In this document: positions 13,360-47,097 of the stretch, piece by piece
Numbering within the stretch: position 1 is the stretch's first letter
How the letters are laid out: each line of letters begins with the position of its first letter
From: Nitrospira sp.
GTDB taxonomy: Bacteria; Nitrospirota; Nitrospiria; Nitrospirales; Nitrospiraceae
Assembly (NCBI GenBank): GCA_005116955.1
Contig: SWDI01000002.1
Span: 671,316 to 735,315 of the forward strand
Direction: 5' to 3'
DNA length: 64,000 bases
Notes under the pieces: generated by a model
The model's input: the letters and a program-made list of their open reading frames with translations, nothing else
Database searches by the model: none
What the model was told of the DNA's origin: nothing
Translations under genes and position numbers: made by a program

Positions 13360-14571
13360 TCAAGCGGTTCCCTTCATCCGCCGGCGCGCCAGTCCGGCCA
13401 ACCCAAGAAGGCCCGATCCAAACAAATACACCGCCGCCGGCACCGGCACGGGCGTCAGCATCCAAGGGATAATTCGATCGTGACCGTCATAGAGATTGGT
13501 CACGATCTGCCCTTGGTCGCTGATGGCGATCCAGTCGGAAGAGGTGGCGGAACTTTGGCCGATGGGATCTTCGATGATATGCCAGCCGGCGGCGATGAGA
13601 TCCGCCGGGATGAATTGCGTGAGATCAATGACCTGGCCGTTGTCCCACAGGGTGGCATGGGCGACGCCATCGGTCGTCTCGCTGAAACCGACAGCCTGGC
13701 CGCTGTCATTGATCGAGAACGCCATCCCTCTAGCCCCGCCGAGGGTGCCCAGCAGCGTCGGTTGGTCGTTCACGCTGTTCCAGATGACCGGCACATTGAT
13801 GTCCCCGTTGTCGTCAGAGACGCCGTTATTGGCCGCGCCGACGATCTGCCCCAGATTGTTGATGCTGTTGGCCTCGTTGTTGACACCGCCGGGCAAGGTG
13901 TCCAGCAGTTGGGGCGTGCCGTTGATCCAGGCGGCGCCGCGGATCGAGTCGCTATTCTCGGTATGGCCGGTCCCCGTCAGCACTCCGTTATCGTTAAGTT
14001 GGTGATTCCAGACAGACACAAATGGTCCGCCCAAGTTGCCCAAATCGGTCAGGGTCGTGCTGCCGGGCTGCCAGAGGGCGGCATTGGTCCCGCCGGCCGG
14101 CGTCCAGACCTGGCCGCCGACCGCGCCTGGATTGTTGATCGACATTCCAACGTCGAAAGGCAACAGCGTCTGAGTGACGTCGAGTGGAATCAAGCCGGTC
14201 AAGATGGTCGGCTGTGTCGTGCTGCTGTCCCAACGGAAGGCGACAGAGGCGTCCACACCGTCCACGACTCCAATGCCCGCGATCTGCCCCGTATCGTTGA
14301 TGTTCAGCGCTGAGTACGCGCTGAAGCCGGGGCGCGCGGCGATATCGCTCCAACTGCCGTTGCTCCAGATGCCCGGCACGCCGGTCGTGCTGTCCCCCAC
14401 CACCTGTCCGAGATTGTTGATGCCGCGCGGCAAATACGATCTCGAAAAATCGCTCAAGCCGCCCATGTCGCTGAAGACATAGCTTTGCGCCAGCGCCGGG
14501 CCGCCAGTGAGGGCGAACACACCGATCACTATGAGTGCACTGCGTTGTAGTGCTCGAAGTGTGTTGAACAT
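13360..14571 (-). CDS. HAF-repeat extracellular protein with VPLPA-CTERM tail
   Basis: A 403-residue secreted protein with a signal peptide (to 'GGPALAQS'). It has repeated HAF-type units with 'ININDTGQIAGIG', 'SINNLGQIVGAA' and 'SINDSGQAVGFSETTDG', each followed by 'W' and a title-like segment. It ends in 'VPVPAAVYLFGSGLLGLAGL' plus RRRMK, a VPLPA-type sorting tail recognised by an exosortase. HAF repeats (TIGR02913) probably form a beta-propeller-like extracellular domain. The ATG at 14571 has AAAGGA about 6 nt upstream. The regulon motif lies about 280 bp upstream on the same strand. The tail and its 3' flank resemble those of the gene at 17953. Confidence 0.88.
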   Translation of the reverse strand: MFNTLRALQRSALIVIGVFALTGGPALAQSYVFSDMGGLSDFSRSYLPRGINNLGQVVGDSTTGVPGIWSNGSWSDIAARPGFSAYSALNINDTGQIAGIGVVDGVDASVAFRWDSSTTQPTILTGLIPLDVTQTLLPFDVGMSINNPGAVGGQVWTPAGGTNAALWQPGSTTLTDLGNLGGPFVSVWNHQLNDNGVLTGTGHTENSDSIRGAAWINGTPQLLDTLPGGVNNEANSINNLGQIVGAANNGVSDDNGDINVPVIWNSVNDQPTLLGTLGGARGMAFSINDSGQAVGFSETTDGVAHATLWDNGQVIDLTQFIPADLIAAGWHIIEDPIGQSSATSSDWIAISDQGQIVTNLYDGHDRIIPWMLTPVPVPAAVYLFGSGLLGLAGLARRRMKGTA

Positions 14572-14833: not shown

Positions 14834-14870
14834 CTACCGACAGGCACCGACGGGTGCAACAGATGTGGTG
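14834..14870 (-). promoter_or_regulatory. Regulon motif upstream of the HAF gene
   Basis: Read on the minus strand: CACCACATCTGTTGCA, then 15 bases, then CGGTAG. It is one of 17 copies of the island motif. Transcription would run toward the HAF gene start at 14571 with a long leader of about 260 nt. Confidence 0.65.
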
Positions 14871-21307: not shown

Positions 21308-21344
21308 CGTCACATCTGTTGCAGGTGTCGGCGCCTATCGCTGG
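21308..21344 (+). promoter_or_regulatory. Regulon motif upstream of the subtilase-like gene
   Basis: CGTCACATCTGTTGCA, 15 bases, CGCTGG in place of CGGTAG. It lies 149 bp before the GTG start at 21472. Confidence 0.6.
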
Positions 21345-21471
21345 ACAGCGCCTGACTCGATCACTACCTTGGGTTACATAGTGAGCCAGTACCACCGACG
21401 ATGTGGATCGTCGTCTCAACGATGAGTCGTCATGCATTATCACTAGCTCCTTTGTCATACAGGAGGTCGCC

Positions 21472-23073
21472 GTGCATCTGAAGACACACGCTCCGTTCAG
21501 GTCTGATTCACCGGTCAGAGACCGCTCGTCGGACCGAAACCTTTTCCAACCCAGTCGAGCACTTTCATGGCTCGGCGCGTGGATGTTCGTGATCACCGGG
21601 ATCTTATCGGTCTCACTTTCGCCTTTCGCCCTGGCAAGCTCTCTCGTCGACGTGGGCTATTCCACCCTCCAGAGTGAGCTAGACGCTCGTACTCCGACTG
21701 GAGCGGGAGTACGCGTGGCGCAGGTTGAAGCACCCACCAACGATACGAGCGGTGGAGCGGCTCCGATCTTCATGCCCAACCCGAGCGATGCCCAATTTGC
21801 AGGCAAGGTGCTCACGGCACAGAACGGGAACGCTTCGGGCACTTTCTCCGATCACGCGACGGCGGTCGGTCGGCTGTTCTATGGAAACACCAGCTCCATC
21901 GCGCCCGGCCTCACGCAGATCGACGCGTACGACGCCGTCAATTGGTTCACCAGCTTGTCGAATGCGTCCGGCACAACCACGACCGGTCCAAACCGCGTCA
22001 CCAACCACAGCTGGGTCGGGACAGGCGACACTCCATCGGAAACCGGACAAATCCTGCGCATGGTCGATCGTCAAGTTCACATCAACGAGTCCATTCAAGT
22101 CGTCGGCCTGGCCAACGGCAGCTCCGACAGTCCGTTACTGGGCAGCGCCTATAACGTGATATCCGTCGGTCGCACCGACGGTGGGCATCAGCAGCGCACG
22201 GTCTCCGTTGCGGGAGACAGTCTCTATGGAACAGCCCGCGCGGCCGCGCTCCTCGTGGCGCCGGAATCCACCACGAGCTCAGCCACCCCGGTGGTCGCCG
22301 CAGCCGCCGCCCTGCTCGTCCAAACCGGCCATGGCGCAGGCTTGTCTCTCTCGGAAGGTTCCACCACCATTTCCGGCGTCGGGACGATCTATAACGCCGA
22401 GCGGTCAGAAACGATCAAGGCAACGTTGTCGGCAGGCGCAGACCGGGAAACGTCAAATACCGGCACCACCACCAATATTACCGACTATCGCAGCGCCGGG
22501 CATGAGACGGCGAACGGATTGGACGACCGCTACGGGGCCGGACAGGTCAATATCTACAACAGCTATCACATCCTGGCCGGCGGCGAGCAGCAGAGTCTCC
22601 AGAGCGGAGGAGGCGATATCGGGTCGAGAGGATTCGATTACGGAACCATCGGTAGAGTCGGTGGCATCCAAGGCGCGGCTTCGTACTTCTTCAACGCGAC
22701 GAGCGAGGTCACGCTCTTCGCCTCGTTGGCGTGGAACCTGAGCCTGTCGAACGACGCCCAGCTGACCTCCCAGCTGTACAATCTCGACGTGTCGCTGTTC
22801 GACGTCACGAACAACCGGCTCGTCGCATCCTCGATCAGCCCCCTCGATAACACGGAAAATCTGTTCTTCAACCTGCTCGTGGGAAATCGCTACGAGATGC
22901 GCGTGACCACAAACGAATCCACCGACTTCTCAGGGGATTACGCTCTGGCCTGGCGGATGGATCCGTCTTCCTCGCCCGTCCCGCTCCCCGCCGCCGTGTG
23001 GCTCTTCGGAAGCGGAATGGCGGGTCTTGCGGCCATTGCCCACCGTCGCATGCAGAGACCATTCACCGCTTAG
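21472..23073 (+). CDS. Subtilase-fold secreted protein with VPLPA-CTERM tail, probably missing the catalytic Asp
   Basis: 533 residues from GTG 21472, which has AGGAGG 5 nt upstream. A membrane/signal segment lies near residues 35-55 ('MFVITGILSVSLSPFALA'). The body looks like a peptidase S8 fold: 'GAGVRVAQVEAP' sits where subtilases have the Asp motif, but the Asp is replaced; 'SDHATAVGRLFYG' retains the His-motif position; 'TSSATPVVAAAAALLVQTG' resembles the Ser motif. A C-terminal beta domain precedes the tail '[20 protein letters not shown]' plus HRRMQ. Proteolytic activity is doubtful, and a binding role is an alternative. 59 nt of the tail are identical to the gene at 24159. Confidence 0.8.
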   Translation: MHLKTHAPFRSDSPVRDRSSDRNLFQPSRALSWLGAWMFVITGILSVSLSPFALASSLVDVGYSTLQSELDARTPTGAGVRVAQVEAPTNDTSGGAAPIFMPNPSDAQFAGKVLTAQNGNASGTFSDHATAVGRLFYGNTSSIAPGLTQIDAYDAVNWFTSLSNASGTTTTGPNRVTNHSWVGTGDTPSETGQILRMVDRQVHINESIQVVGLANGSSDSPLLGSAYNVISVGRTDGGHQQRTVSVAGDSLYGTARAAALLVAPESTTSSATPVVAAAAALLVQTGHGAGLSLSEGSTTISGVGTIYNAERSETIKATLSAGADRETSNTGTTTNITDYRSAGHETANGLDDRYGAGQVNIYNSYHILAGGEQQSLQSGGGDIGSRGFDYGTIGRVGGIQGAASYFFNATSEVTLFASLAWNLSLSNDAQLTSQLYNLDVSLFDVTNNRLVASSISPLDNTENLFFNLLVGNRYEMRVTTNESTDFSGDYALAWRMDPSSSPVPLPAAVWLFGSGMAGLAAIAHRRMQRPFTA

Positions 23074-23176: not shown

Positions 23177-23213
23177 CGTCACATTTGTTGCATCCATCTG
23201 CACCAATCGGTAG
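23177..23213 (+). promoter_or_regulatory. Regulon motif of the 23303-25223 operon
   Basis: CGTCACATTTGTTGCA, 15 bases, CGGTAG: a near-consensus copy, 90 bp before ATG 23303. Confidence 0.65.
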
Positions 23214-23302
23214 ACGCACCACTGATGTACGGACTACCGTCACACTGCACGCATACATGTCCACATTTTTCTATCGTATTATCTCTAAAGGAGAGAATAG
23301 TT

Positions 23303-24037
23303 ATGACAAAGCATAGGGTTATCCTCAGCGTTGCTGTGCTCGGCTTGTGGATGACAAACTCGTTGCCGGCCTCGGCTGCCACATTCTTTTCCACCGATTT
23401 CAATACGAATGACGGAGGCTTTACGCAAAGCACCGTGAATCCTCTCGGCGCGTCCCCGTCTGGCCCATGGACTCATGGTTCGACGGTCGGCGTCGGTGGG
23501 AGCGGTGGATGGACTGCAGGACCGGAAGAAGGCCAAGGAAACCCTGTTGAACATCTGCTGACGTCTTCGGTCATCTCGCTTGCAGATAGCGGTGCCGTCA
23601 GCCTCAGCTTTGATCATCGCTACAGCTTCGAGCAGGGGTGGGATGGCGGGCAAGTCTTGGTCAGCCTCAATGGCGGCACCTTTGCCCCTGTGTCCGGCGC
23701 CAGCTTCACCCAGAACGGATATTCTGGAACAATTCAAACCAACGACGACTGGGGATACACGGACGACATGAACGGTCTTGATGTCTTTACGGGAGAAGCC
23801 GCAACCTTTGGCTCGAGTCTTGCCAACCTCGGCTCCTTCAACGCCGGTGATACGCTGCAAATCCGATTCCGTGGCGGCTGGGATTGGAATGGAATTGGAA
23901 GCGATCCCTCTCTTGGCTGGCAAATCGACAATGTGGCACTGTCCGTCAATCCTGTCCCATTGCCCGCTGCGGCATGGCTGTTTGGGAGCGGTGTGATCGG
24001 CCTCGGTGCCATGGCACGCCGCAAGTTAGTGGCCTAG
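23303..24037 (+). CDS. Secreted beta-sandwich protein with VPLPA-CTERM tail
   Basis: 244 residues from ATG 23303 (AAAGGAGAG upstream). The signal peptide ends at 'SLPASAATFF'. The mature domain is rich in Gly/Asn/aromatics with 'LSFDHRYSFEQGWDGGQVLV' and 'DTLQIRFRGGWDWNGIGSD', a jelly-roll pattern like MAM/laminin-G or carbohydrate-binding modules attached to peptidases. The tail is 'VPLPAAAWLFGSGVIGLGAM' plus ARRK. It is first in a pair with the 24159 gene, from which it is separated by a strong hairpin. Confidence 0.85.
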   Translation: MTKHRVILSVAVLGLWMTNSLPASAATFFSTDFNTNDGGFTQSTVNPLGASPSGPWTHGSTVGVGGSGGWTAGPEEGQGNPVEHLLTSSVISLADSGAVSLSFDHRYSFEQGWDGGQVLVSLNGGTFAPVSGASFTQNGYSGTIQTNDDWGYTDDMNGLDVFTGEAATFGSSLANLGSFNAGDTLQIRFRGGWDWNGIGSDPSLGWQIDNVALSVNPVPLPAAAWLFGSGVIGLGAMARRKLVA

Positions 24038-24057
24038 GCATACTGAAATGATGGAAA

Positions 24058-24098
24058 CCGGGCGGCGCATGGCTGATCTCCTTCGATGCGCCGCCCGG
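24058..24098 (+). terminator. 13-bp perfect stem-loop between 23303 and 24159 genes
   Basis: CCGGGCGGCGCAT (24058-24070) is exactly complementary to ATGCGCCGCCCGG (24086-24098) with a 15-nt loop, 20 bp past the stop. No U tract follows, so partial termination or 3'-end protection is more likely than full termination. Confidence 0.5.
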
Positions 24099-24158
24099 CC
24101 ACAGGATATTTCCGGACGTCACAACCTAAGTACTTCACAGAAAGAGAAAGAGGACTCC

Positions 24159-25223
24159 ATGAATATCAACCATTGTATGCGTGAGGCACATGTTGCTTCT
24201 CCGCCCTACGCTCGCGCAGTGCTCATCGGACTTGGGCTAGTCAGCTGCCTTAGCCTAACCCCCGGGCCTGCTGAGGCCCATGTGTCTTACACTGGTACCA
24301 CCATGACCAACGGGAACGGCGCCTTCCTCGATCGCGAAACGGTTCGCAAAGATCTTGCGCTGACCGTCACCGGCCATGCAGCTCAAAATGCCGCAAGCGC
24401 AGGGATCGGCGTGGCCACAGGACTGCCGGCTGACAATGGCGCGTTTACCTCCTACAGCAATGTCGGTGGCGTCATCTCCAGTCGTCAGGACACCACCGTG
24501 GAATCCAATACCGGCTGGCTCAATGGGGTCAGCAATGGGGCCGACAGCCATCTCGTAAAGTTCTTCGGTGTCGAGCTCAGCACGACTTCCACTGTCAGCA
24601 TTTTTGCCGAAGGTCTGTCTGGTATCGGAACCGCATCCAGCGATCTGGTTCCTTCTATTTCCCTCTACAGCGGGAAAGCGCCCTATCAAGCGCACGACCA
24701 AGCCCCGATTCCGGTTGACTACAATGGCGACGGGCTCCCCGATCCGTTCGATCCAAACCAGAACGGAACGCCACTCTATACGTTTGCGCCCGGGCAGACG
24801 GGAGTGTTTTTTGCTACCCAGGACACCACGATGTGGAACGATCCCGTGGACCGCTATAATGCGGCTGGATTGCAAGCGGACTATGCAGCAGGAAACCTCA
24901 CGGTCGACCGGGATGGCAACGGCATCATCAATCAGGCTGATGTGGCGTTGATGACTCCGGAAATCGGGACCATATCGTACGTGGACCATATTTTTAACAG
25001 CACTAATCCGTCCGTGGAATGGAGCGGCACATTGGGCCCAGGGTTCTATACATTCCTGGTCGGTGGGTCGGACCCTAACGAGCCTGCTGCCACGGCTTCT
25101 CTACTCCGTGGTTTGCGCGTCAACTTCGAAGCTGCTCCCGTCCCGCTCCCCGCCGCCGTGTGGCTCTTCGGAAGCGGAATGGCGGGTCTTGCGGCGTGGG
25201 CTCGGCGGCGCAGAACCGAATAA
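24159..25223 (+). CDS. Secreted protein with VPLPA-CTERM tail and dockerin-like calcium loops
   Basis: 354 residues from ATG 24159 (GAAAGAGGA 6 nt upstream). The signal peptide ends 'GPAEAHVSYTG'. The middle part has two acidic loops that look like EF-hand/dockerin calcium sites: 'DYNGDGLPDPFDPNQNG' and 'VDRDGNGIINQADV'. The tail is '[20 protein letters not shown]' plus ARRRR. No specific function is known. The tail's 59 nt are identical to those of the unrelated gene at 21472, and the 3' flank resembles that of the gene at 40219. Confidence 0.83.
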   Translation: MNINHCMREAHVASPPYARAVLIGLGLVSCLSLTPGPAEAHVSYTGTTMTNGNGAFLDRETVRKDLALTVTGHAAQNAASAGIGVATGLPADNGAFTSYSNVGGVISSRQDTTVESNTGWLNGVSNGADSHLVKFFGVELSTTSTVSIFAEGLSGIGTASSDLVPSISLYSGKAPYQAHDQAPIPVDYNGDGLPDPFDPNQNGTPLYTFAPGQTGVFFATQDTTMWNDPVDRYNAAGLQADYAAGNLTVDRDGNGIINQADVALMTPEIGTISYVDHIFNSTNPSVEWSGTLGPGFYTFLVGGSDPNEPAATASLLRGLRVNFEAAPVPLPAAVWLFGSGMAGLAAWARRRRTE

Positions 25224-25345: not shown

Positions 25346-25382
25346 CACCATATCTGGTGCAGCGAGCAGCGCCTCTCGGTAG
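25346..25382 (+). promoter_or_regulatory. Regulon motif upstream of the receiver/zinc-ribbon pair
   Basis: CACCATATCTGGTGCA, 15 bases, CGGTAG, 117 bp before ATG 25499. Confidence 0.6.
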
Positions 25383-25498: not shown

Positions 25499-25996
25499 AT
25501 GGAAAACCTGTCGAAGAAGAGGCCCTGCGTCATGATCGTGGACCACGACTTGGATTTTGGGATCAAGCTCGCTGATTGGCTCGCGGCACACGGCTACCAG
25601 GCGGTGCTGGTCCGGTCGATCGAAACGGCGATCGATGAATGCCGAGCCCTCCACCCACAAGTCGTCTTCATCGGGCTCAGTCGCTCTGAGCCGGAAGTCC
25701 AGCTGAACCTGCATGGATTATTCCGTGTGATTGAGACCACGTGCCCTCTCGTGCCGGTGATTACCATGGGATACCGAGCAAGCGGGAAGCTCATCCAGGT
25801 CGTGGCTGATGGAGCCGTGCGCCAGGTTCTGGTCAAACCCATCGGCTTCACGTACATCGGTCGTTTGCTTCAGGCGGAACTCAACCGGGCCACCGCATCA
25901 CTGGATGTCCGAAACAGAGAGGCAGGTTCTCAGGATGGATGGGCAGTAGATAATCTCACATACGAACAGCTCGTTCATCGGGAGGCAACGACATGA
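25499..25996 (+). CDS. Stand-alone receiver-like regulator lacking the phospho-acceptor Asp
   Basis: 165 residues from ATG 25499 (AAAGGAG 7 nt upstream). A CheY-like domain spans about residues 8-125: the acidic pocket is 'VMIVDHDLDFGIKL' and the conserved Lys is in 'QVLVKPIGFTYIG'. The beta-3 position that normally carries the phosphorylated Asp reads 'PQVVFIGLSRSEP', with Gly in its place, and the beta-4 Thr/Ser is also lost ('VPVITMGYRAS'). Signalling without phosphorylation is therefore likely. A 30-residue tail follows, with no DNA-binding domain. The stop overlaps the zinc-ribbon start (ATGA), so the two are translationally coupled. A decayed second copy lies at 41628. Confidence 0.75.
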   Translation: MENLSKKRPCVMIVDHDLDFGIKLADWLAAHGYQAVLVRSIETAIDECRALHPQVVFIGLSRSEPEVQLNLHGLFRVIETTCPLVPVITMGYRASGKLIQVVADGAVRQVLVKPIGFTYIGRLLQAELNRATASLDVRNREAGSQDGWAVDNLTYEQLVHREATT

Positions 25997-26247: not shown

Positions 26248-26264
26248 TTGCGTCGTTCGTTCCG

Positions 26265-26360
26265 TCGATCCTGAGTTTCACGTTTCATGTTCAATGTTTC
26301 AAGTTATGCAGAAACCAACAACCTGAAACTCGAAACATGAAACGTGAAACTCAGGATCGA
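26265..26360. repeat. Long perfect inverted repeat of the GTTTCA family
   Basis: The 26-nt arm at 26265-26290, containing CTGAGTTTCACGTTTCATG, is exactly complementary to 26335-26360. The 44-nt centre is also partly self-complementary (CAATGTTTCAAGTT / AACCTGAAACTCG). It separates the zinc-ribbon gene from the next regulon promoter, and could end transcription or be a REP-like mobile hairpin. Confidence 0.65.
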
Positions 26361-26384
26361 CAATGAATGACCAGAGCCATTTTC

Positions 26385-26421
26385 CGTCACATCTGTTGCA
26401 TCGAACAGCACCCATTGCTCG
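26385..26421 (+). promoter_or_regulatory. Regulon motif upstream of 26508
   Basis: CGTCACATCTGTTGCA exactly matches the consensus 16-mer. The downstream half is TGCTCG instead of CGGTAG. It is 123 bp before ATG 26508. Confidence 0.6.
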
Positions 26422-26507: not shown

Positions 26508-26933
26508 ATGAAGCGTCTCTTGTTGTCGACCGCCGTGGTTTCACTCATCCTCTGCACCCAGGCTCACGCATTCTTCGAAGAAGAAGGCCGCTGCCAGAAA
26601 CGGGACCTTCGAGGAAACTGGGTCTCGTACCAAAACGAAGTCCTGAAAAATCCCCATACCGGTATCTGCAAGTTTTCCATTGAGAACGGGAAAGCCGACG
26701 GCACATGTGACTTTTCGCTGAAGGACGAACAGGGCAATCTCTTGACGGGACTGCAATTCACCGGCGAGGCAACCGTGAAGGAAGACTGCTCCGCGCAGGT
26801 GACGATGGACTTCGCGCCTCGTCCATTCAAGTCCACGTTTCAGCTCCAATTGCACCGGAACAAGAAATCCTTCGTGGGTCGCTGGGAGAACACGTTCGGC
26901 GCGCTCGGCACGGCGAGCGGGGTGAAGCAGTAA
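26508..26933 (+). CDS. Small secreted protein without sorting tail
   Basis: 141 residues from ATG 26508 (AAGGAG 8 nt upstream). The signal peptide ends at 'CTQAHAFFEEE'. The mature 120-residue beta-rich domain has three further cysteines ('RCQKRDLRG', 'GICKFSI', 'GTCDFSLKDEQG', 'EDCSAQV'), compatible with disulfides. It lacks a VPLPA tail, yet it has an exact copy of the island motif and is closed by a canonical terminator. Function is unknown. Confidence 0.75.
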   Translation: MKRLLLSTAVVSLILCTQAHAFFEEEGRCQKRDLRGNWVSYQNEVLKNPHTGICKFSIENGKADGTCDFSLKDEQGNLLTGLQFTGEATVKEDCSAQVTMDFAPRPFKSTFQLQLHRNKKSFVGRWENTFGALGTASGVKQ

Positions 26934-27595: not shown

Positions 27596-28024
27596 TTATT
27601 CAAGAGGGTGGCGGATGCGAAGGCCGGGGAAGCGATGGTAGTCGCGATCGGCGGTCACCCACTCGCTGCCGCTTTCAATGGCCAACGCAGCGAGAAAGGC
27701 ATCCGGAACGAGGTTGCCTTTGACATCGGCCGTTTTGCACAGACTGCAAAAGATCTCCCAATGGCGGGGACCAGGATTGATGACGGTGCAAGTCGGTTGA
27801 TCGCGAAGCTCTCTTGCGAACGCCATGGCCTTATTCATGCTGCTCGGAGGATTGAACACACTTGGATGGGTGACGACTCGGAGAAAGCCGCTCAGCACCA
27901 GATCGGACAGGCCGTAGGGGTTGTCGGAGTTGAGCAGGTTTTCAAGCCATCTGCGATAGAGATGATGGTGCGGTGAATCTTGACGGTGAGCGTAGACGAG
28001 CACATTGACGTCAAGAAGGACCAT
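27596..28024 (-). CDS. VapC-family PIN-domain toxin
   Basis: 142 residues from ATG 28024. PIN-domain nuclease features are the N-terminal 'VLLDVNVLVYAHR' (first catalytic Asp), a central acidic stretch 'DAFLAALAIESG' and 'WVTADRDYHRFPGL' (last Asp motif). Toxins of this type cleave tRNA or rRNA. The antitoxin gene at 28011-28262 precedes and overlaps it by 14 nt, the usual arrangement of type II modules. An upstream in-frame extension to 28063 is not homologous. Confidence 0.85.
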   Translation of the reverse strand: MVLLDVNVLVYAHRQDSPHHHLYRRWLENLLNSDNPYGLSDLVLSGFLRVVTHPSVFNPPSSMNKAMAFARELRDQPTCTVINPGPRHWEIFCSLCKTADVKGNLVPDAFLAALAIESGSEWVTADRDYHRFPGLRIRHPLE

Positions 28025-28262
28025 GGGGCCGTTCCATGAAGGCGAGGAGCGCGGCGGAGTCATTCAGGTCGACACCGGGCCGGACTCCGCGTCCGGAGAC
28101 CGTGGTGAGCCTCACCGGTTTGCGCGGGTGCCGGGCAATCCGGCGAGACAGGATCTGCCGAAGCGCGTCTTCTATGACCGCCGTCAACGACTTGCCTGTG
28201 TCGTGAGCGAAGCGTTTGGCGGACTTCAGGAGTTGATCGTCGAGTCGAACAGTCGTGCGCAT
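28011..28262 (-). CDS. Ribbon-helix-helix antitoxin (VapB/CopG type)
   Basis: 83 residues. The N-terminal strand and helices 'MRTTVRLDDQLLKSAKRFAH' and 'GKSLTAVIEDALRQIL' form an RHH DNA-binding domain, followed by a C-terminal toxin-binding tail ('DLNDSAALLAFMERPHG'). It is expected to neutralise the overlapping PIN toxin and repress the operon. The position 5' to the toxin and the 14-nt overlap support the assignment. Confidence 0.85.
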   Translation of the reverse strand: MRTTVRLDDQLLKSAKRFAHDTGKSLTAVIEDALRQILSRRIARHPRKPVRLTTVSGRGVRPGVDLNDSAALLAFMERPHGPS

Positions 28263-28974: not shown

Positions 28975-29091
28975 CGAGATTGGATCTCCATGATAGCCAT
29001 AGGCCAGTGAATGATCGGGCCATCAGAACCCATCGGTAGCAACCATTGGCAGCGCCGGCCGGGGCGCAGATACATGAATGCAGGAGGATGT

Positions 29092-31113
29092 ATGAAAACC
29101 GCGCATGTCTCACTCGGTCTGGTTATCCTGTCGGTCTTGTCCACATCCACGATTCAGGCGCTGACCGGAGATGGAACGATTCCTCGTGTGGTAAACCCGC
29201 CCGCGACCAGTGACCTCACGAATCTACCCGGCGATTTGCGCGCGGTGCCGGTCCCAGGCCCAGGCGATCAAGCGCTCACGGAGTACGTCAAGGATAAGCA
29301 GACGGCCATCGCCTTGGGCAAGGCGCTGTTCTGGGACATGCAAATCGGCAGCGACGGGGTGCAGGCCTGCGCCAGCTGCCATTTTCGCGCCGGGGCGGAC
29401 CCACGCTCGAAGAATCAACTCTCGCCTGGCCTCAAGCATGTGCCGCAGCAGGACCTGACTTTCAAGACCGGCGGTCCGAACTATCAACTGACTGGCTCCG
29501 AGTTTCCCCTCACCCGCCTTGCGATTGCCGGACAACGCGGCGCACTCGACTCAGCTACCGACAGCAACGATGTCGTGAGTTCCCAGGGCGTTCCGTTTCT
29601 CGACAGAGGCCCTGACCCGCTGGGCTTCCACGTGAACCGGCTCAAGACTCGTCGGGTCGAGCCGCGCAACACTCCGTCGGTGATCAACGCGGTGTTCAAC
29701 CATCGCCAGTTCTGGGATGGCCGCGCCGAGAATATCTTCAACGGCGTGAATCCGCTGGGCGCTCGAGACCCCGAGGCTCGGGTGATGGCATCAATAGGCG
29801 GAAGTCTGGCCGAAGTTCAAGTCGCGCTGGTAAACTCCAGCTTGGCTTCACAGGCCGTGGGCCCGATCGTCAGCGAGATCGAGATGGCCGCCCCGGGCCG
29901 TACGGCACAAGACATCGTACGCGATCTTCGCAAAGGCAAGCACAGCCGCCGCCTCGGTCGGCGTGTCCATGGCTCACGCCCTCTCCAACAGCAACTGGTC
30001 GACCCATCCGACAGTGTGCTGGGTCCGCTCAGCCGCTACCCGGAACGCGGTCTCCGTGTGAAGTCCTACAATGCCATGATCCGGACGGCCTTCCAGGAGA
30101 AGTACTGGCAGAGCGAGAAATTCGTTCAGGTGGCGGAGGACGGCACGGTGTCGATCGTCGATCAACGAGACAGAAACCCGGACACCGACGAATACACCCT
30201 GCTGGAGTACAACTTCGCGTTGTTCTTCGGCCTAGCCGTGCAACTCTATGAAGCCACCTTGGTCTCCGACGACACCCCATGGGACCGATTCCGACGCGAG
30301 CACCCGAGTGCCACCGATCCCGCGCTCAACCCCTGGACCAACCAGAATCCCAACCATATCACCCGCTTTGCGCTCTTCGGCGCGCACCTGTTCAACGATC
30401 GGACCCGTGGCCCGAACAATCTGCGTTGCAGCAACTGCCACGAGAGCGCGGAACTGACCGACGCGTCGGTCCGGCGAATTGGGTTGGCCGCCAACGGCCC
30501 GGTGCGTAACCGCGACGGGAATATCATCGACAAGGGCTTCAACAACATCGGCCTGCGCCCCACCGAGGACGACTTGGGTGTCGGAGCAAGCGATGCCTTC
30601 GGCCCCTTGTCGCACAGTAAGCGCCTCTTCCCAGACTCGCCACCGGCTAGTTTTGATGGTGCGGCGGTGACGAAGGGATTCGGCCTTGAAGGCGCATTCA
30701 AGATACCATCGCTGCGCAATGTCGCCCTGACGGCTCCCTATTTTCACAATGGCGACACCCATTCACTTCGCGAAGCGGTACTGTTCTACAGTCGCGGGGG
30801 TAATGTCGCGCCGATCGCACAAATCGATGGGACACCAATCGAGCCGCTCGGCATTGCCAACATGACCTCCGACGAGGCTGATGCCGTGGTGGCCTGGCTC
30901 GAAGCGCTCACGGATGAGCGGGTCCGCATTGCCAGCGCCCCATTTGACCACCCGCAACTGTTCGTGCCCAATGGTCATCCGGGCAACCAGGGCGGAGTCG
31001 AGCGCGGCAAACAAGGATTCGCGAAGGACGATCTGGTGGAAATCCCGATGACCGGCGCAGCCGGAGGCCCGCCGCTGCCGGGATTCCTCGAAGGAGTGTT
31101 CGGACCACACTGA
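29092..31113 (+). CDS. Large dihaem cytochrome c peroxidase (MauG/CcpA family)
   Basis: 673 residues from ATG 29092 (AGGAGG 5 nt upstream), with a signal peptide ending near 'STIQALTGD'. Two c-type haem sites are visible: '[20 protein letters not shown]' and '[15 protein letters not shown]', with '[20 protein letters not shown]' characteristic of the family, and '[22 protein letters not shown]' near the C-terminus. The enzyme reduces H2O2 or performs long-range oxidation in the periplasm. It is longer than classical CcpA (about 320-350), with insertions between the haem sites. The C-terminus '[19 protein letters not shown]' replaces a sorting tail and recurs as a remnant at 31935. Paralogue at 37241. 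Confidence 0.9.
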
Positions 31114-32365: not shown

Positions 32366-32402
32366 CGTCATATCTGTAGCACGGGTGAGGTTCAATCGGT
32401 AG
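32366..32402 (+). promoter_or_regulatory. Regulon motif of the 32497-34222 genes
   Basis: CGTCATATCTGTAGCA, 15 bases, CGGTAG, 131 bp before ATG 32497. Confidence 0.65.
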
Positions 32403-32496: not shown

Positions 32497-33219
32497 ATGA
32501 ACCCTATTACGACAAGAACGCGATCTCTCGGCTTCATCGTCGCCGCCGTGGGACTCTGGCTGGCCGGGGTTGCTCCGTTGCACGCTGCAACCATCACCGC
32601 CGGGGACACCGGGGATCCACTCAGCCGAGGCATCGCCTATAACTGGACCGTCAACATGAGTGGCAATGACACCACAGCGGGATCAACCCCCAACTATGCC
32701 GCCGCTATCGGATCGCTCAGTTGGAACGATCCGATCAATGCCGGGGATCCCATCGGCACAGGCTGGACACACACGTCGAATTGGACCGCGTTGACCCTGA
32801 CCGAAGCGGCCGACCTCACCATCACGCTCGCGGCGAACGGCAGCTCGTTGGTTCCTGCGTTCTCGCTCTATGCAGGCCACCAACAAACTGATAATGGCGG
32901 AAACTTTGGGTGGCATGTCTATAACAATGCCGGAAATTTTGACTGGAGTACGGCAGACCCCACGTACGACTCCAGCTCGTTGAACTATATCGGCAACGCC
33001 ACGGCCTCCGGCACTGACTCCTCGATTACCAAGACCTTCTCGCTCGGACCAGGGTTGTACAGCCTGGTCTTCGGCGGCAATCCTCCTGCCGGGACTCCCG
33101 GTAGTTCAGTTGCCTATCAGGCCACGCTTTCAACAGTACCGGTTCCGGCCGCCGTCTATTTGTTCGGCAGCGGCCTCATCGGCCTCGCCGGACTTGCCCG
33201 ACGCAAGTTCTCGGCCTAA
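32497..33219 (+). CDS. Secreted protein with VPLPA-CTERM tail, paralogue of 34536
   Basis: 240 residues. The ATG at 32497 has AAGGAG 8 nt upstream. The signal peptide ends 'APLHAATITAG'. The mature part shares with the 34536 product the pattern 'VNMSGNDTTAGS', 'GWTHTSNWTALTLTEAADLT', 'VPAFSLYAGHQ' and 'LGPGLYSLVFGGNPP', a small beta domain reminiscent of pre-peptidase C-terminal modules. The tail is 'VPVPAAVYLFGSGLIGLAGL' plus ARRK. Function is unknown. Confidence 0.83.
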   Translation: MNPITTRTRSLGFIVAAVGLWLAGVAPLHAATITAGDTGDPLSRGIAYNWTVNMSGNDTTAGSTPNYAAAIGSLSWNDPINAGDPIGTGWTHTSNWTALTLTEAADLTITLAANGSSLVPAFSLYAGHQQTDNGGNFGWHVYNNAGNFDWSTADPTYDSSSLNYIGNATASGTDSSITKTFSLGPGLYSLVFGGNPPAGTPGSSVAYQATLSTVPVPAAVYLFGSGLIGLAGLARRKFSA

Positions 33220-34402: not shown

Positions 34403-34439
34403 CGTCACATCTGTAGCAAGGACTTGGTTTGGTCGGTAG
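34403..34439 (+). promoter_or_regulatory. Regulon motif of the 34536-39112 operon
   Basis: CGTCACATCTGTAGCA, 15 bases, CGGTAG, 97 bp before ATG 34536. No further copy occurs until 39238, so four genes may depend on it. Confidence 0.65.
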
Positions 34440-34535: not shown

Positions 34536-35309
34536 ATGAATCACGTTGTATCGAGAAGGCAGTCTATAGGCTTCATCGCCGCTGCCGTGGGTCTGTGGCT
34601 GGCCGGGGCCGCACCGTCTCACGCCTCGACGGTCACGGCAAATCCAGCCGGTCACCAATCGGGACTCACCTATGAGTGGGAAGTCCAGATGGGCGACAAT
34701 GATTCTGCCACCTACGCCGGATCGGTCGGCGCCAAGAGTTGGGCGGAGCCGGGAAACCCAGGCCCGGACCTGTTAAACCCGAACGGCAGAAAAGGCTGGA
34801 CCCATATCTCAGACTGGACCCTGTTGAACCTCACCAGTGCCACCGGCCCCACGCTTGTGACGCTTACGCTGGGTCGCGGTGCCACCGGGTCCTTATTCCC
34901 GGCCTTCAGCCTGTATTCCGGCGTGGAGGACGTGGTCTCCGACTTAAACAGTCATACCTTCACCAACATTGGAGATACGACTTGGCAGGTGAATGCGGCG
35001 GATCCCCCAATTTACGAACCAGCGAACATTACCTATCTCAGTCATGTCGCCAATGCCGGTGGGCCGAACGGCGAAGTTGAAGGATCCGGAGTGACATCCG
35101 TCTCCGATAGCTGGGTGTTGGCGCCCGGTCTGTACAGCCTCGTCTATGGAGGCAATCCTGGCTTTGTCCCTCCTCTCGGCCAAACCGGCAACCACGCCTT
35201 TTCGGCGACATTGACGACCGCACCCGTCCCGGTTCCGGCCGCAGCCTATTTGTTCGGCAGTGGGCTGATCGGCCTGGCAGGACTCGCGAGACGGAGGTTG
35301 TCGGCCTAG
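34536..35309 (+). CDS. Secreted protein with VPLPA-CTERM tail, paralogue of 32497
   Basis: 257 residues; AAGGAG upstream of ATG 34536. The signal peptide ends 'APSHASTVTA'. Shared pattern with the 32497 product: 'VQMGDNDSATYAGSVGAKSW', 'GWTHISDWTLLNLT', 'FPAFSLYSG' and 'LAPGLYSLVYGGNPG'. The tail is 'VPVPAAAYLFGSGLIGLAGL' plus ARRR. First gene of a probable operon with 35488, 36169 and 37241. Confidence 0.83.
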   Translation: MNHVVSRRQSIGFIAAAVGLWLAGAAPSHASTVTANPAGHQSGLTYEWEVQMGDNDSATYAGSVGAKSWAEPGNPGPDLLNPNGRKGWTHISDWTLLNLTSATGPTLVTLTLGRGATGSLFPAFSLYSGVEDVVSDLNSHTFTNIGDTTWQVNAADPPIYEPANITYLSHVANAGGPNGEVEGSGVTSVSDSWVLAPGLYSLVYGGNPGFVPPLGQTGNHAFSATLTTAPVPVPAAAYLFGSGLIGLAGLARRRLSA

Positions 35310-36168: not shown

Positions 36169-37161
36169 ATGGCCAGTATCAAATCTATAATTTTATTGGC
36201 TGGAATATTAGCTATTCCGACTACGGCTTCATCCGAGACACTGTATAGCATTGGAAACAGCCTGACAGTGGACGGATTAACCGGTCTTACTGCCACGACT
36301 AACATCAATGGCTATTCCCTGGATGTTGGCACACATATTCGGGCCGGTGCCCCACTGAACTATATCCGAGCCTATCCGAGTGATGTTACCCCTGGCTATG
36401 AAACCCCTTATGGAACATGGGATTATGCGCTGTCTAATTTCAGATTCGATCATGTTCTCATTCAACCTTATCTCGGAACCGGATTTGGAACTCACGACAC
36501 GCTGGGTTCCGATGTATCCAATATTCAATATTGGATAGATTTGGCCAAACACGGCGGTCTGGCTAATAATACGGAATTTTATATCTATGAAGCCTGGCCG
36601 CAGCAAAGTGCTTTCAACGGAAATTATCAATCCTACTGGAACCAACCTCTCTCCGATGACTCCAATCAACCTATGATTTTTGCGCGGGAATACTTTGATT
36701 CCGCTTACCTGGCCCTTACAAATCATTATGGAGACAGCGCGGATATCGGAGTAATTCCTATCGGCGATGTCATAAGTCGAATGGATCAGGATATCAAGGC
36801 AGGGTTGTTCCCTGAAATATCTGATGTCCGCCAGCTTTATCGGGATGACGTCCATTTAGGAGACGTCGGACGATTTGTGGCAACAGCTACGATCTATTCT
36901 GCTCTCACGAAGACGAGCCCAGAAAATATCGATCTCCCGAACTGGCCGTTCGCGACAGGGCAGGGTCCGCTGGTGTTGACACCGAGGTTAGCATCACACA
37001 TTGGGTCTGTGGTTTGGGACGTGGTATCTCACGATACCCGTGCGATCACGCCCGTCCCCCTCCCCGCCGCCGCCTGGCTGTTCGGGAGCGGATTGCTCGG
37101 CCTGGGATCCATGGCCAGAGCCAGACTGCGAAAAGGACAACCGATTGCATACAGGCGGTAA
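36169..37161 (+). CDS. SGNH-hydrolase-like secreted protein with VPLPA-CTERM tail
   Basis: 330 residues. The signal peptide ends 'TTASSETLYS'. 'LYSIGNSLT' near residue 25 corresponds to SGNH/GDSL block I (nucleophile Ser), and 'YRDDVHLGDVGRFVATATIY' to block V (D-x-x-H). It may therefore be an esterase or carbohydrate acetyl-esterase acting outside the cell; substrate unknown. The tail is 'VPLPAAAWLFGSGLLGLGSM' plus ARARLRK. The first 700 bases are visibly more A/T-rich than neighbouring genes, whereas the tail is GC-rich, suggesting a foreign domain joined to a local tail. Confidence 0.8.
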   Translation: MASIKSIILLAGILAIPTTASSETLYSIGNSLTVDGLTGLTATTNINGYSLDVGTHIRAGAPLNYIRAYPSDVTPGYETPYGTWDYALSNFRFDHVLIQPYLGTGFGTHDTLGSDVSNIQYWIDLAKHGGLANNTEFYIYEAWPQQSAFNGNYQSYWNQPLSDDSNQPMIFAREYFDSAYLALTNHYGDSADIGVIPIGDVISRMDQDIKAGLFPEISDVRQLYRDDVHLGDVGRFVATATIYSALTKTSPENIDLPNWPFATGQGPLVLTPRLASHIGSVVWDVVSHDTRAITPVPLPAAAWLFGSGLLGLGSMARARLRKGQPIAYRR

Positions 37162-37240
37162 CTGTTACTTAACGGGAAGTACGCGCTCACGGCCAGACGA
37201 TCGAGAGCCAGTCCTTCCCGGAACATCGGAAGGAGTAGTC

Positions 37241-39112
37241 ATGCGCACAGGTATCCCCCATTTTCTCGCCGTTGCCCTGATAGGGCTCGGCATCACTGTC
37301 TCAACGGAAGCATTTTCGCAGGTCAACAGTCCGACTGATCCTCCCCGTCCCCCGTCGCTCAAGACCGTGCCGGTGCCGGAGCCGACAAACCTGGCCGACT
37401 TTGTCAGTGACCGCCAAGCCGCCATCCGCCTCGGCAAAGCGCTGTTCTGGGACATGCAGGTCGGCAGTGATGGGGTGCAGGCCTGCGCAAGCTGCCATTT
37501 TAATTCGGGTATGGCGGACAACCGCTCGAAGAATCAACTCTCTCCGGGCTTAAAACGGATCACCGCGACTGGCTCCCCAAACCCCGACACCACGTTCTAC
37601 AGAAACCTCGGCCCAGTTGGGCAAGTAACGGGATCTGACTTTCCGTTCTTCCCCGCCAGCAACGACGTACTCTCCTCACAGGGTGTCCGCAACTCCGTCT
37701 TCCTTGGGATCGGAAACGGCTCAGCTGATCTCACGCGTCAAGAACCGGACCCTGATGGATTTCGAGTTGGGTCGACGAACACGCGCCGGGTCGAACCTCG
37801 CAATACCCCGACCGTCGTCAATGCGGTGTTCAATCACCGTCAATTCTGGGACGGGCGGGCGGATAATGTGTTCAATGGTGTCAACGAAATGGGCGATCGG
37901 GATCCGAACGCTCGGGTGTTCCGCGCGGACAGCCCGACCAACCCCGTTCCGGTGCAGGTCCGGCTGGAAGACTCCAGCCTCGCGTCACAAGCAGTCGTCC
38001 CACCTGTCAGCCCTGATGAAATGTCGGCACGCGGTCGAACGATGCGGGATATCGGCAAGAAATTCGCCCGCTACCAGATTCCCGGTCAGCCGGCCTCCAA
38101 CCTTCGGCCTCTGGCGCTTCAGTTGGTGCATCCTGAGGACAGCGTGCTCGGCCCCTTGAGCCGGTGGCCTCAAAAAGGATTGAGCACCATCGGGTATCCG
38201 GAACTGATTCAGGCGGCGTTTCACCGTCAGTGGTGGGATTCGCCTAAAGTGATTCGCGTCGGGACCGATGGAACGCCGACCGTAATCGACCCACCCTCCG
38301 TGGCGCTTGCGGCCAATGAATACACCTTGACGCAGTACAACTTCTCACTCTTCTTCGGCTTGGCCGTCCAGCTGTACGAAGCGACCCTCGTGGCTCACAA
38401 TTCGCCGTACGATCAATTCATGGACGGCAATCCCAATGCGATCAGCGCGCAGGCCATCTTAGGCGTCGACCTCTTCCGCAGCCAGACCCGTGGTCAGTGC
38501 ATCACCTGTCACGAAGGCGCCGAACTGACCGGCGCCTCAGTACGACAAGTCCGTGCCAGTCCGACGCGCATCCGCGATGAACAAGCGATGGACAGAGGCT
38601 TCAATAACATCGGTGTGCTGGCCACGATTCAAGATTTGAGCCTCGGGGCGAAGGATTCCCTCGGCAACTGGCTCTCCACGGTCAAGCGCCTGACCCCACC
38701 GCCGGCGGAACCGATTGTCGTCGATGGGGCCTTCAAAGTGCCCGGCCTGCGAAATGTCGAACTCACGGCTCCGTATTTCCACAATGGCGGCCAGCGAGAT
38801 TTACCCGCCGTCATTGAATTCTATAACCGGGCCGGCGATGCCCACGAAGGCATGCTGACGCTCGACGGTACCGACATCGTGCTCATGTCGATCTTGGGCC
38901 TCACGGCTGATGAAAAGGCAGCCCTGCTGGCCTTTCTTGTTTCTCTCACAGATGAACGAGTGCGCTTTCAGCAGGCCCCGTTCGATCACCCGCAGCTGTT
39001 CATCCCGAACGGACCGGGCGCCCCGCGCATGATCATGCCCGGCGATCCGTTGTTCGAAATTCCCGCGGTCGGTCGCTTCGGTGGGCAACCGCAAAAGAAG
39101 TTCTTGGAGTAG
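37241..39112 (+). CDS. Large dihaem cytochrome c peroxidase (MauG/CcpA family), paralogue 2
   Basis: 623 residues from ATG 37241 (GGAAGGAG upstream). The signal peptide ends 'TEAFSQVN'. The haem sites are 'ACASCHFNSGMADNRSKNQL' and 'QCITCHEGAELTGASV'; family blocks are '[20 protein letters not shown]' and 'PYFHNGGQRDLPAVIEFYNR'. The overall length and insertions match the 29092 paralogue, but the C-terminus ('MIMPGDPLFEIPAVGRFGG') differs. That C-terminus recurs as a fragment at 42854. It probably detoxifies H2O2 or oxidises a partner in the periplasm. Last gene of the operon that starts at 34536. Confidence 0.9.
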   Translation: MRTGIPHFLAVALIGLGITVSTEAFSQVNSPTDPPRPPSLKTVPVPEPTNLADFVSDRQAAIRLGKALFWDMQVGSDGVQACASCHFNSGMADNRSKNQLSPGLKRITATGSPNPDTTFYRNLGPVGQVTGSDFPFFPASNDVLSSQGVRNSVFLGIGNGSADLTRQEPDPDGFRVGSTNTRRVEPRNTPTVVNAVFNHRQFWDGRADNVFNGVNEMGDRDPNARVFRADSPTNPVPVQVRLEDSSLASQAVVPPVSPDEMSARGRTMRDIGKKFARYQIPGQPASNLRPLALQLVHPEDSVLGPLSRWPQKGLSTIGYPELIQAAFHRQWWDSPKVIRVGTDGTPTVIDPPSVALAANEYTLTQYNFSLFFGLAVQLYEATLVAHNSPYDQFMDGNPNAISAQAILGVDLFRSQTRGQCITCHEGAELTGASVRQVRASPTRIRDEQAMDRGFNNIGVLATIQDLSLGAKDSLGNWLSTVKRLTPPPAEPIVVDGAFKVPGLRNVELTAPYFHNGGQRDLPAVIEFYNRAGDAHEGMLTLDGTDIVLMSILGLTADEKAALLAFLVSLTDERVRFQQAPFDHPQLFIPNGPGAPRMIMPGDPLFEIPAVGRFGGQPQKKFLE

Positions 39113-41402: not shown

Positions 41403-41439
41403 CCCCACATCTAGTGCAGTGATCAGCGCCATGCAGTAA
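41403..41439 (+). promoter_or_regulatory. Regulon motif upstream of the decayed receiver copy
   Basis: CCCCACATCTAGTGCA, 15 bases, CAGTAA. Its position relative to the receiver pseudogene is the same as that of the 25346 copy to the intact gene. Confidence 0.5.
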
Positions 41440-41627
41440 CCGCTGCTCCTCATCTTGTATTTGGATACCTCATCGTCTCCGAGACCGTGATTTGCGCTAC
41501 CCATGGCGATGAGAAGAGGACTCTGCGTGATACCGCGCATGCGCCGCCGAATCGGCGCGCGGCCGGTAAGAGAGGAAAGGGAGATCCGCCCATGTGACAC
41601 TGATCGAGCCAGAAGAGGCCGTGCATT

Positions 41628-41912
41628 ATGGCATCATGCGCCTATCCTCATGTTCCGGTGGTCACCATGGGAGTTTGCGCCGGCTGGGACCCGACGAACA
41701 TCCCGAACGGTGGATCCCTTCGCCGTCTTCATCTTCTACTCAAGCCCTTCGAGTTTAAGTACATTGGGCGTCTGCTCCGATCGGAACTCAGCGCGGCAAC
41801 CGCATCGTCGAATCAGCCTGACAGAGAGTCTGGTTCTCCCGATGGACGGGCGGTTGCACACCTCTCACACAAGCGGGCAATCCATGGCGGGACAACCGCA
41901 TGGGTCGGGTAA
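41628..41912 (+). pseudogene. Decayed copy of the receiver-like regulator
   Basis: Only the C-terminal half survives: 'VPVVTMGVCAGWDP' corresponds to 'VPVITMGYRASGK' of the 25499 product, 'LLLKPFEFKYIGRLLRSEL' to 'VLVKPIGFTYIGRLLQAEL', and 'DRESGSPDGRAVAHLSHKRA' to its tail. The N-terminal acidic pocket is gone. It overlaps the fragment of the zinc-ribbon partner as in the intact pair. Confidence 0.7.
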
Positions 41913-42027: not shown

Positions 42028-42064
42028 TGTCATATCTGTTGCATCTGTAGTATCTGTTGCTCGC
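42028..42064 (+). promoter_or_regulatory. Regulon motif upstream of 42144
   Basis: TGTCATATCTGTTGCA, immediately followed by a second partial copy (ATCTGTAGTATCTGTTGC). The CGGTAG half is not clear. It is 101 bp before ATG 42144. Confidence 0.6.
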
Positions 42065-46718: not shown

Positions 46719-46856
46719 ATGAGTTATCGCCGGTACCGCGTCCTCATATGTACTGTTGTTGCCCCCCGCACTCCAGCCGGCAGCGGCAGGCTGGGCAGTA
46801 CCCACAGATGGCACTGTATGCTCTGTGGTGAGATCATCCATCCAGTGATCGCGTGA
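46719..46856 (+). CDS. Short zinc-ribbon-like protein fragment
   Basis: 45 residues from ATG 46719. The C-terminal 'HRWHCMLCGEIIHPVIA' resembles 'RAWRCVACGDLIDSVI' of the 25993 protein. The first Cys pair is lost, so it may be a remnant. It marks the right end of the island. The interval 46857-47097 contains only an unsupported 82-codon frame. Confidence 0.4.
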   Translation: MSYRRYRVLICTVVAPRTPAGSGRLGSTHRWHCMLCGEIIHPVIA

Positions 46857-47097
46857 AATTGCATCCGCGCAAAGAACCCGCACTTGATCGGAAACCACGG
46901 GAACCCTCGCCAGCCTCTGTTCAGACCTTGGCGACCGGGATGCGCGACCTGACCGGAGACACCACGAACAGCGAGACGAAACCTCATCGCCCCCTGAATC
47001 CTTTCACGGAAAGCCCTTCTGCTGCCCGCACCTATCCTTCGACCAACCCCCATTCTTTCCTTCTTGTCGGGCCTGCGCTACAGTACGGCATCGTCCA

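Follow-up and report, generated by a model that had tools for sequence, protein, structure and literature searches.

Results and Discussion

The locus and its features

In the 64-kb stretch of Nitrospira DNA analysed here (the window), a gene for a receiver-like protein, preceded by a ribosome site of the AGGAGA type, is followed by a gene for a small protein with two cysteine pairs, and as already claimed by the sequence-only reading the stop of the first and the start of the second share an ATGA (25993–25996, a 4-nt overlap; Table 1). Nitrospira are nitrite-oxidising bacteria. The pair is located in an island of VPLPA-CTERM surface-protein genes, and a rigid 37-bp block, CGTCACATCTGTTGCA-N15-CGGTAG, which usually comes after a T run, lies upstream of many of these XrtD-sorted genes and of the receiver gene itself. 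With 20 matches to TIGR03370 and two genes for the exosortase XrtD (540 and 532 bits, cut-off 400) the genome of the window possesses a VPLPA-CTERM/XrtD system, which is defined by the presence of both parts in one genome.

Table 1: Features of the window (positions are those of the whole stretch).
Feature	Position	Strand	Remarks
VPLPA-CTERM gene	21403–23073	+	
Promoter-like block of the gene 21403–23073	21308–21344		
PEP-CTERM gene	23225–24037	+	C-terminus VPLPAAAWLFGSG; true start probably further in
Promoter-like block of the gene 23225–24037	23177–23213		
VPLPA-CTERM surface-protein gene directly upstream of the receiver	24048–25223	+	TIGR03370 28.1 bits, cut-off 25.35
Receiver-gene block, variant CACCATATCTGGTGCA-N15-CGGTAG	25346–25382	+	ends 116 bp before the ATG
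Pseudo-receiver gene, 165 aa	25499–25996	+	ATG start; Nitrospira genome
Four-Cys zinc-ribbon-like protein, 84 aa	25993–26247	+	C6-x2-C9 and C38-x2-C41
Promoter-like block upstream of the gene 26508–26933	26385–26421	+	
Small exported protein, 141 aa	26508–26933	+	family c8
Promoter-like block upstream of the gene 32497–33219	32366–32402	+	
VPLPA-CTERM gene with CorA-like copper-binding region	32497–33219		
Promoter-like block upstream of the gene 34536–35309	34403–34439	+	
VPLPA-CTERM gene	34536–35309		
Promoter-like block upstream of the gene 13360–14571	14834–14870	-	
Weak promoter-like block remnant, before the decayed receiver copy	41403–41439	+	score 19.2
Decayed second receiver copy	41604–41912	+	N-terminal half missing
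Decayed zinc-ribbon remnant	46758–46925	+	in-frame TGA

An aspartate-less receiver

Taken alone, the 165 aa protein reached 17.8 bits against PF00072, which is below the cut-off of 30.2, but a family profile compiled from 14 of the 25 aligned rows (13 relatives and the window's own sequence) matched the receivers of Spo0F, CheY and RssB in the PDB with a best E of 2e-8. Its AlphaFold2 model (pLDDT 65), built on three near-identical sequences, is of low confidence and was therefore used for the fold only, and it could be superimposed on known receivers with a VIA Z of up to 12.3 (rmsd 3.4, 118 residues). In a Foldseek search with this model arginine decarboxylase chains ranked top, followed by response regulators and others. 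The proposed receiver domain is real on these grounds, being weak for the single sequence and clear from the family profile and the model. The receiver is 100% identical to its counterpart in the Nitrospira MAG RSF1 and 95% identical to that in RSF5.

The five catalytic positions are occupied by D15 (DD1), H16 (DD2), G59 (D), G91 (T) and K113 (K), so that two residues are kept and three are lost. The exchange of the conserved Asp for Gly, the loss of the beta-4 Thr/Ser and the retention of the Lys had all been read correctly from the letters, whereas the acidic pocket, which had been described as intact, holds for D15 and not for the second acidic residue, which is a His. As no Asp is found from -6 to +7 around the D position near beta-3, a displaced Asp, which would have refuted the sequence-only reading, was rejected and its loss stands.

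According to the available part of PMC12632262 (2025), a pseudo-receiver (PsR) is a receiver that misses at least one of DD1, DD2, D, T and K. As a receiver by family profile and fold with at least one of these residues gone, the 165 aa protein is a pseudo-receiver by this definition and thus of a kind already known, and because of G59 it is also an aspartate-less receiver (ALR), which its fused orthologues described below, having Asp there, are not. It lacks the complete set of D, DD, T/S and K of a phosphorylatable response regulator, and as it consists of a receiver only it also lacks the sigma-54 interaction domain and the Fis-type DNA-binding domain which together with a receiver make up PrsR. 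It shares with RitR, FrzS, NblR, CmrT and BldM/WhiI the receiver fold without key phosphotransfer residues, and it also carries an Ile at K+2, a residue class that the same available text describes as favouring active states. In contrast to these proteins it is a stand-alone receiver coupled or fused to a four-Cys zinc-ribbon-like protein with no HTH output, and it differs from other ALR in having Gly instead of the common Glu at D, with D being present in the fused branch.

Relatives of the receiver are present at E ≤ 1e-9 in 23 of the 79 Nitrospira genomes, which is not chance. They comprise ten intact two-gene loci and G020, whose ORF is cut short (group A), five genomes in which receiver and zinc ribbon form a single ORF (group B), six solo receivers adjoining a PAS histidine kinase and LuxR-type response regulators (group C), an extra solo paralogue in G019 and G063 (group D) and a divergent relative in G053. 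At least two of the five catalytic residues are missing in all 25 aligned rows, although not always the same ones: group B and G058 have retained D and lost DD1, DD2, T and K, whereas the D-less rows of groups A, C and D all have DD1 and, one row excepted, K. Thus, the residue losses differ between the branches. Seen over the Nitrospira rows this is an inverse pattern, as D occurs only in those rows that have lost the other four residues.

Three lost catalytic residues and the decayed copy at 41.6 kb might suggest that the receiver of the pair is itself nothing but a decaying, functionless remnant of a response regulator. This we regard as very improbable and already disfavoured, as the dN/dS of the receiver gene was 0.06–0.43 in 12 pairs, indicating purifying selection, the promoter and the gene overlap are conserved and the fused orthologues are intact in five genomes. 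The 41.6-kb copy was also rejected as a simple duplication of the receiver gene next to the zinc ribbon, since it shows 54% identity to a G011-type paralogue compared to 43% to the receiver at 25499–25996.

The four-cysteine partner and its coupling to the receiver

The cysteines C6, C9, C38 and C41 of the 84 aa protein are invariant across 15 aligned proteins and form two C-x2-C knuckles like those of a zinc ribbon; a family-specific HPIDPLDPLD insert, a basic segment and a PRQPVFK tail are its further features. Searches with it gave no hit in Pfam (E ≤ 1) or NCBIfam (E ≤ 0.01), its matches to solved structures were weak and non-significant and its own model (pLDDT 56) was too weak to use. 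No recognised DNA-binding domain was found in either protein of the pair. The core CxRCxG...RCxxCG..D..I..NR is common to the receiver-linked form and a family of small C-x2-C/C-x2-C proteins from Nitrospira, which is represented by 16 matches (E ≤ 1) in the genome of the window, the receiver-linked protein included, and the latter differs by a 4-residue insert (the HPIDPLDPLD segment) and by its tail. At one group C locus (L057:7413-8083, minus strand) the gene of a small protein without Pfam match, winged-helix-like by eye, has a 4-nt overlap with that of another four-Cys protein, which raises the possibility that members of the zinc-ribbon family pair with more than one kind of partner.

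The receiver and four-Cys genes overlap in 10/10 intact two-gene loci, by 4 nt in the window and by 13 nt in several others (e.g. G046), and the group B fusions form one clade with a support of 100/100. These natural single-ORF fusions in five genomes also support the complex of receiver and zinc ribbon that had been suggested from the overlap. Judged from gene order and fusion, a functional coupling of the two proteins is strongly supported. The two-gene form may likewise act as a physical complex, and the four-Cys protein is a putative zinc binder. In G003 both parts are affected, the receiver being broken and one Cys of the zinc ribbon lost, and no promoter block was found at that locus. 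A spread of the pair by plasmids was rejected, as no match was found in the plasmid collection.

The most conserved element of the receiver is the alpha-1 stretch GIKLADWLAAHGYQ with a mean majority fraction of 0.85 (21 rows) compared to 0.44–0.74 elsewhere, suggesting that a face for protein binding and not a catalytic pocket has been conserved. A decoy that keeps this docking face without taking up phosphate, and so sequesters a histidine kinase or a phosphotransfer protein, would explain such a conservation and would fit the kinase and response regulators next to the group C relatives. We nevertheless consider it quite improbable for the pair, because no such kinase was found beside groups A or B in the neighbourhoods examined, where instead the zinc ribbon is constant.

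A conserved block upstream of surface-protein genes

Using a block model seeded on eleven sites of the window, that is on one genome, so that more distant versions of the block may have escaped detection in other species, we detected 59 sites in 20 neighbourhoods of other genomes compared to 1 after local shuffling. All but one of them (58) belong to 13 loci of group A, group B or the extra paralogues, and the remaining one to 7 other loci. If at most 2 mismatches are allowed, the block pattern matches 24 times in the whole genome of the window and the reversed pattern 4 times. For all 79 genomes we counted a related block pattern, again with at most 2 mismatches, against a control: the 16 genomes with the pair (group A or B) gave 104 matches versus 11 for the control and the 63 genomes without it 62 versus 57, which is background level, species kinship being ignored in both counts. 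VPLPA-CTERM matches are themselves more numerous in group A or B genomes than in the rest (Mann-Whitney p 5e-9; 79 genomes), but also among the genomes with at least 3 such matches the block is enriched only together with the pair (15 versus 10 genomes, Mann-Whitney p 0.0009, kinship ignored).

Of the 16 group A or B genomes, 15 have the block in front of the receiver gene, the exception being G009, whose contig starts 102 bp before the match. The version at the receiver gene, CACCATATCTGGTGCA, holds a CACCA-N4-TGGTG dyad, and block position 11 is G in 12/12 receiver promoters but in 6/49 other sites, so that the receiver promoters form a distinct subclass. The link to surface-protein sorting is also visible in the neighbourhoods, as an XrtD gene adjoins the fused gene in G059 (scored) and a gene of the same family does so in G040 and G049. 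Of the 20 neighbourhoods examined, 5 have a member of the exported-protein family c8 close to the pair. The promoter-like block at 42028–42064 holds a tandem 9-bp repeat, TGTCATATC TGTTGCATC TGTAGTATC TGTTGC, and the block itself may be a direct repeat of TGTNNCATC.

The block could also be read by an unrelated factor such as sigma-54 with an activator, an ECF sigma factor or a LuxR protein, with the pair being only downstream. The spacing CGTCAC-N5-TTGCA is that of a sigma-54 -24/-12 site, sigma-54 and many region-4 proteins are encoded in the genome, and CTG-N10-CAG, which we take to be lux-box-like, was counted by eye in 8/12 receiver promoters. While the -12 GC is present in about 98–100% of 60 sites, the -24 GG is absent, its second base being T in about 80% of them, and the block is thus no sigma-54 promoter as usually defined. 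Furthermore, none of the 9 ORFs scanned near two XrtD loci carried the name PrsR or PrsK according to the model-based naming. Nor do the data support the LuxR neighbour as the factor to which the block belongs, as it is present in 74/79 genomes and does not track the block. Altogether we hold a reading of the block by an unrelated factor to be unlikely.

In three genomes a LuxR protein is encoded upstream of the pair (L049:8793-9641, L051:5600-6526 and L053:10158-11096), and an autoinducer-binding domain was scored in those of L049 and L051. The best NCBIfam match of the LuxR protein adjoining the receiver in some relatives (two scored, the third from the same cluster) are the EpsA-type LuxR regulators (TIGR03020), from which it differs in reaching only 66 of the 170 bits of the cut-off; moreover, the EpsA fold differs from that of the receiver. 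A quorum-sensing input to the pair via the upstream LuxR protein is possible.

A candidate two-part regulator

In the available part of Haft 2006 (PMC1569441) PrsR/PrsK were identified by a presence matching the distribution of the proteobacterial PEP-CTERM promoter motif, and for the species discussed there outside the Proteobacteria no shared motif was found. The same distribution-matching logic makes the pair a candidate regulator of the Nitrospira block: it is found in species bearing the shared block before exported surface-protein genes and thus is a candidate controller of these genes. The likeness to PrsK/PrsR (as covered by the available text of PMC1569441) lies in a conserved upstream DNA block and a candidate regulator with the same genome distribution. 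However, PrsR reads a sigma-54 promoter with the output domains named above, whereas the Nitrospira pair has no such outputs and its block no -24 GG.

We propose, with a probability of roughly 0.45, that the pair controls the VPLPA-CTERM regulon as a two-part regulator working independently of phosphorylation, and that it is a functional counterpart of the proteobacterial PrsR. The two genes, overlapping in some species and fused to a single protein in others, would represent one functional unit, in which the receiver part would no longer take up phosphate but serve as a protein–protein module, with the alpha-1 face as its most conserved surface. The basic four-Cys part might be the output contacting DNA or RNA polymerase, and the unit would regulate the promoters of the XrtD-sorted VPLPA-CTERM proteins. 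Since the receiver promoter is a variant of the VPLPA-CTERM promoters, the activity of the unit might be set by expression level and autoregulation and not by a kinase.

The conserved overlap, the fusion clade, the dN/dS values, the co-occurrence of pair and block, the receiver promoter subclass, the XrtD genes beside the fused gene and the broken pair without a block in G003 argue for such a regulator. Against it stand the missing recognised DNA-binding domain, the genome G076 (83% complete assembly), where many VPLPA-CTERM genes and two plausible block sites occur although no pair was found, the few exact block sites in fused genomes (G008 1, G040 1, G009 0) and the residue losses, which in the fused members, having kept Asp, are not those of the other branches. 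The idea that the pair could be the regulator of the island gains independent support from the block, which exceeds background in no genomes but those with the pair, and from the own block variant of the receiver gene, and the regulatory role itself is what we infer from them. For the other suggestion, an adaptor of the polymerase, the database and structure searches with the four-Cys protein gave nothing that would speak for it directly.

A protein may belong to a regulon without controlling it, and in the chief alternative the pair is such a member, acting as a cytoplasmic adaptor or scaffold in the assembly of surface proteins or polysaccharides by way of protein contacts, as the pseudo-receiver FrzS does its own work. 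The location inside VPLPA-CTERM islands, the block in front of the receiver gene and the conserved alpha-1 region would agree with this, and pseudo-receivers acting by protein contacts are known (PMC12632262, available part). But a mere passenger does not predict that the block is at background in the 10 VPLPA-CTERM-rich genomes without the pair, the distinct promoter subclass of the receiver also speaks against it, and we find the adaptor somewhat doubtful.

For the regulator the more far-reaching version would be a new architecture, in which a receiver that has lost phosphorylation and a zinc ribbon govern, without a classical DNA-binding domain, a Nitrospira-specific VPLPA-CTERM regulon via the previously undescribed 37-bp block and autoregulate via the palindromic variant CACCA-N4-TGGTG; this version is more tentative and in our view rather doubtful as a whole. 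In the literature searched (pseudo-receivers, PEP-CTERM/exosortase, VPLPA-CTERM, Nitrospira regulators) we found neither the pair nor the block, and new relative to it are the coupling and fusion to a zinc ribbon, the block and the distribution that they share. If the regulatory role is true, PEP-CTERM-type surface proteins would gain a candidate regulator outside the Proteobacteria, in organisms important for nitrification and biofilms. The switching of pseudo-receivers is called an open question in the available part of PMC12632262, and here the natural fusion names the partner of a pseudo-receiver, the decayed copy and the broken locus offer natural controls and the defined block allows a direct test.

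Other features of the island

Within the 64-kb window no match to Rfam was found. Right after the zinc-ribbon gene lies a near-perfect inverted repeat of 98 bp (26264–26361), which matches its own reverse complement in L044 and is proposed to be a hairpin or a mobile repeat. Two adjacent ORFs on the minus strand (27596–28262) look like what we presume to be a toxin–antitoxin pair of the VapBC type. Two MauG-type di-haem peroxidases (29011–31113 and 37001–39112) share the island with CorA-like copper-binding VPLPA-CTERM proteins, and their MauG family recurs in other islands.
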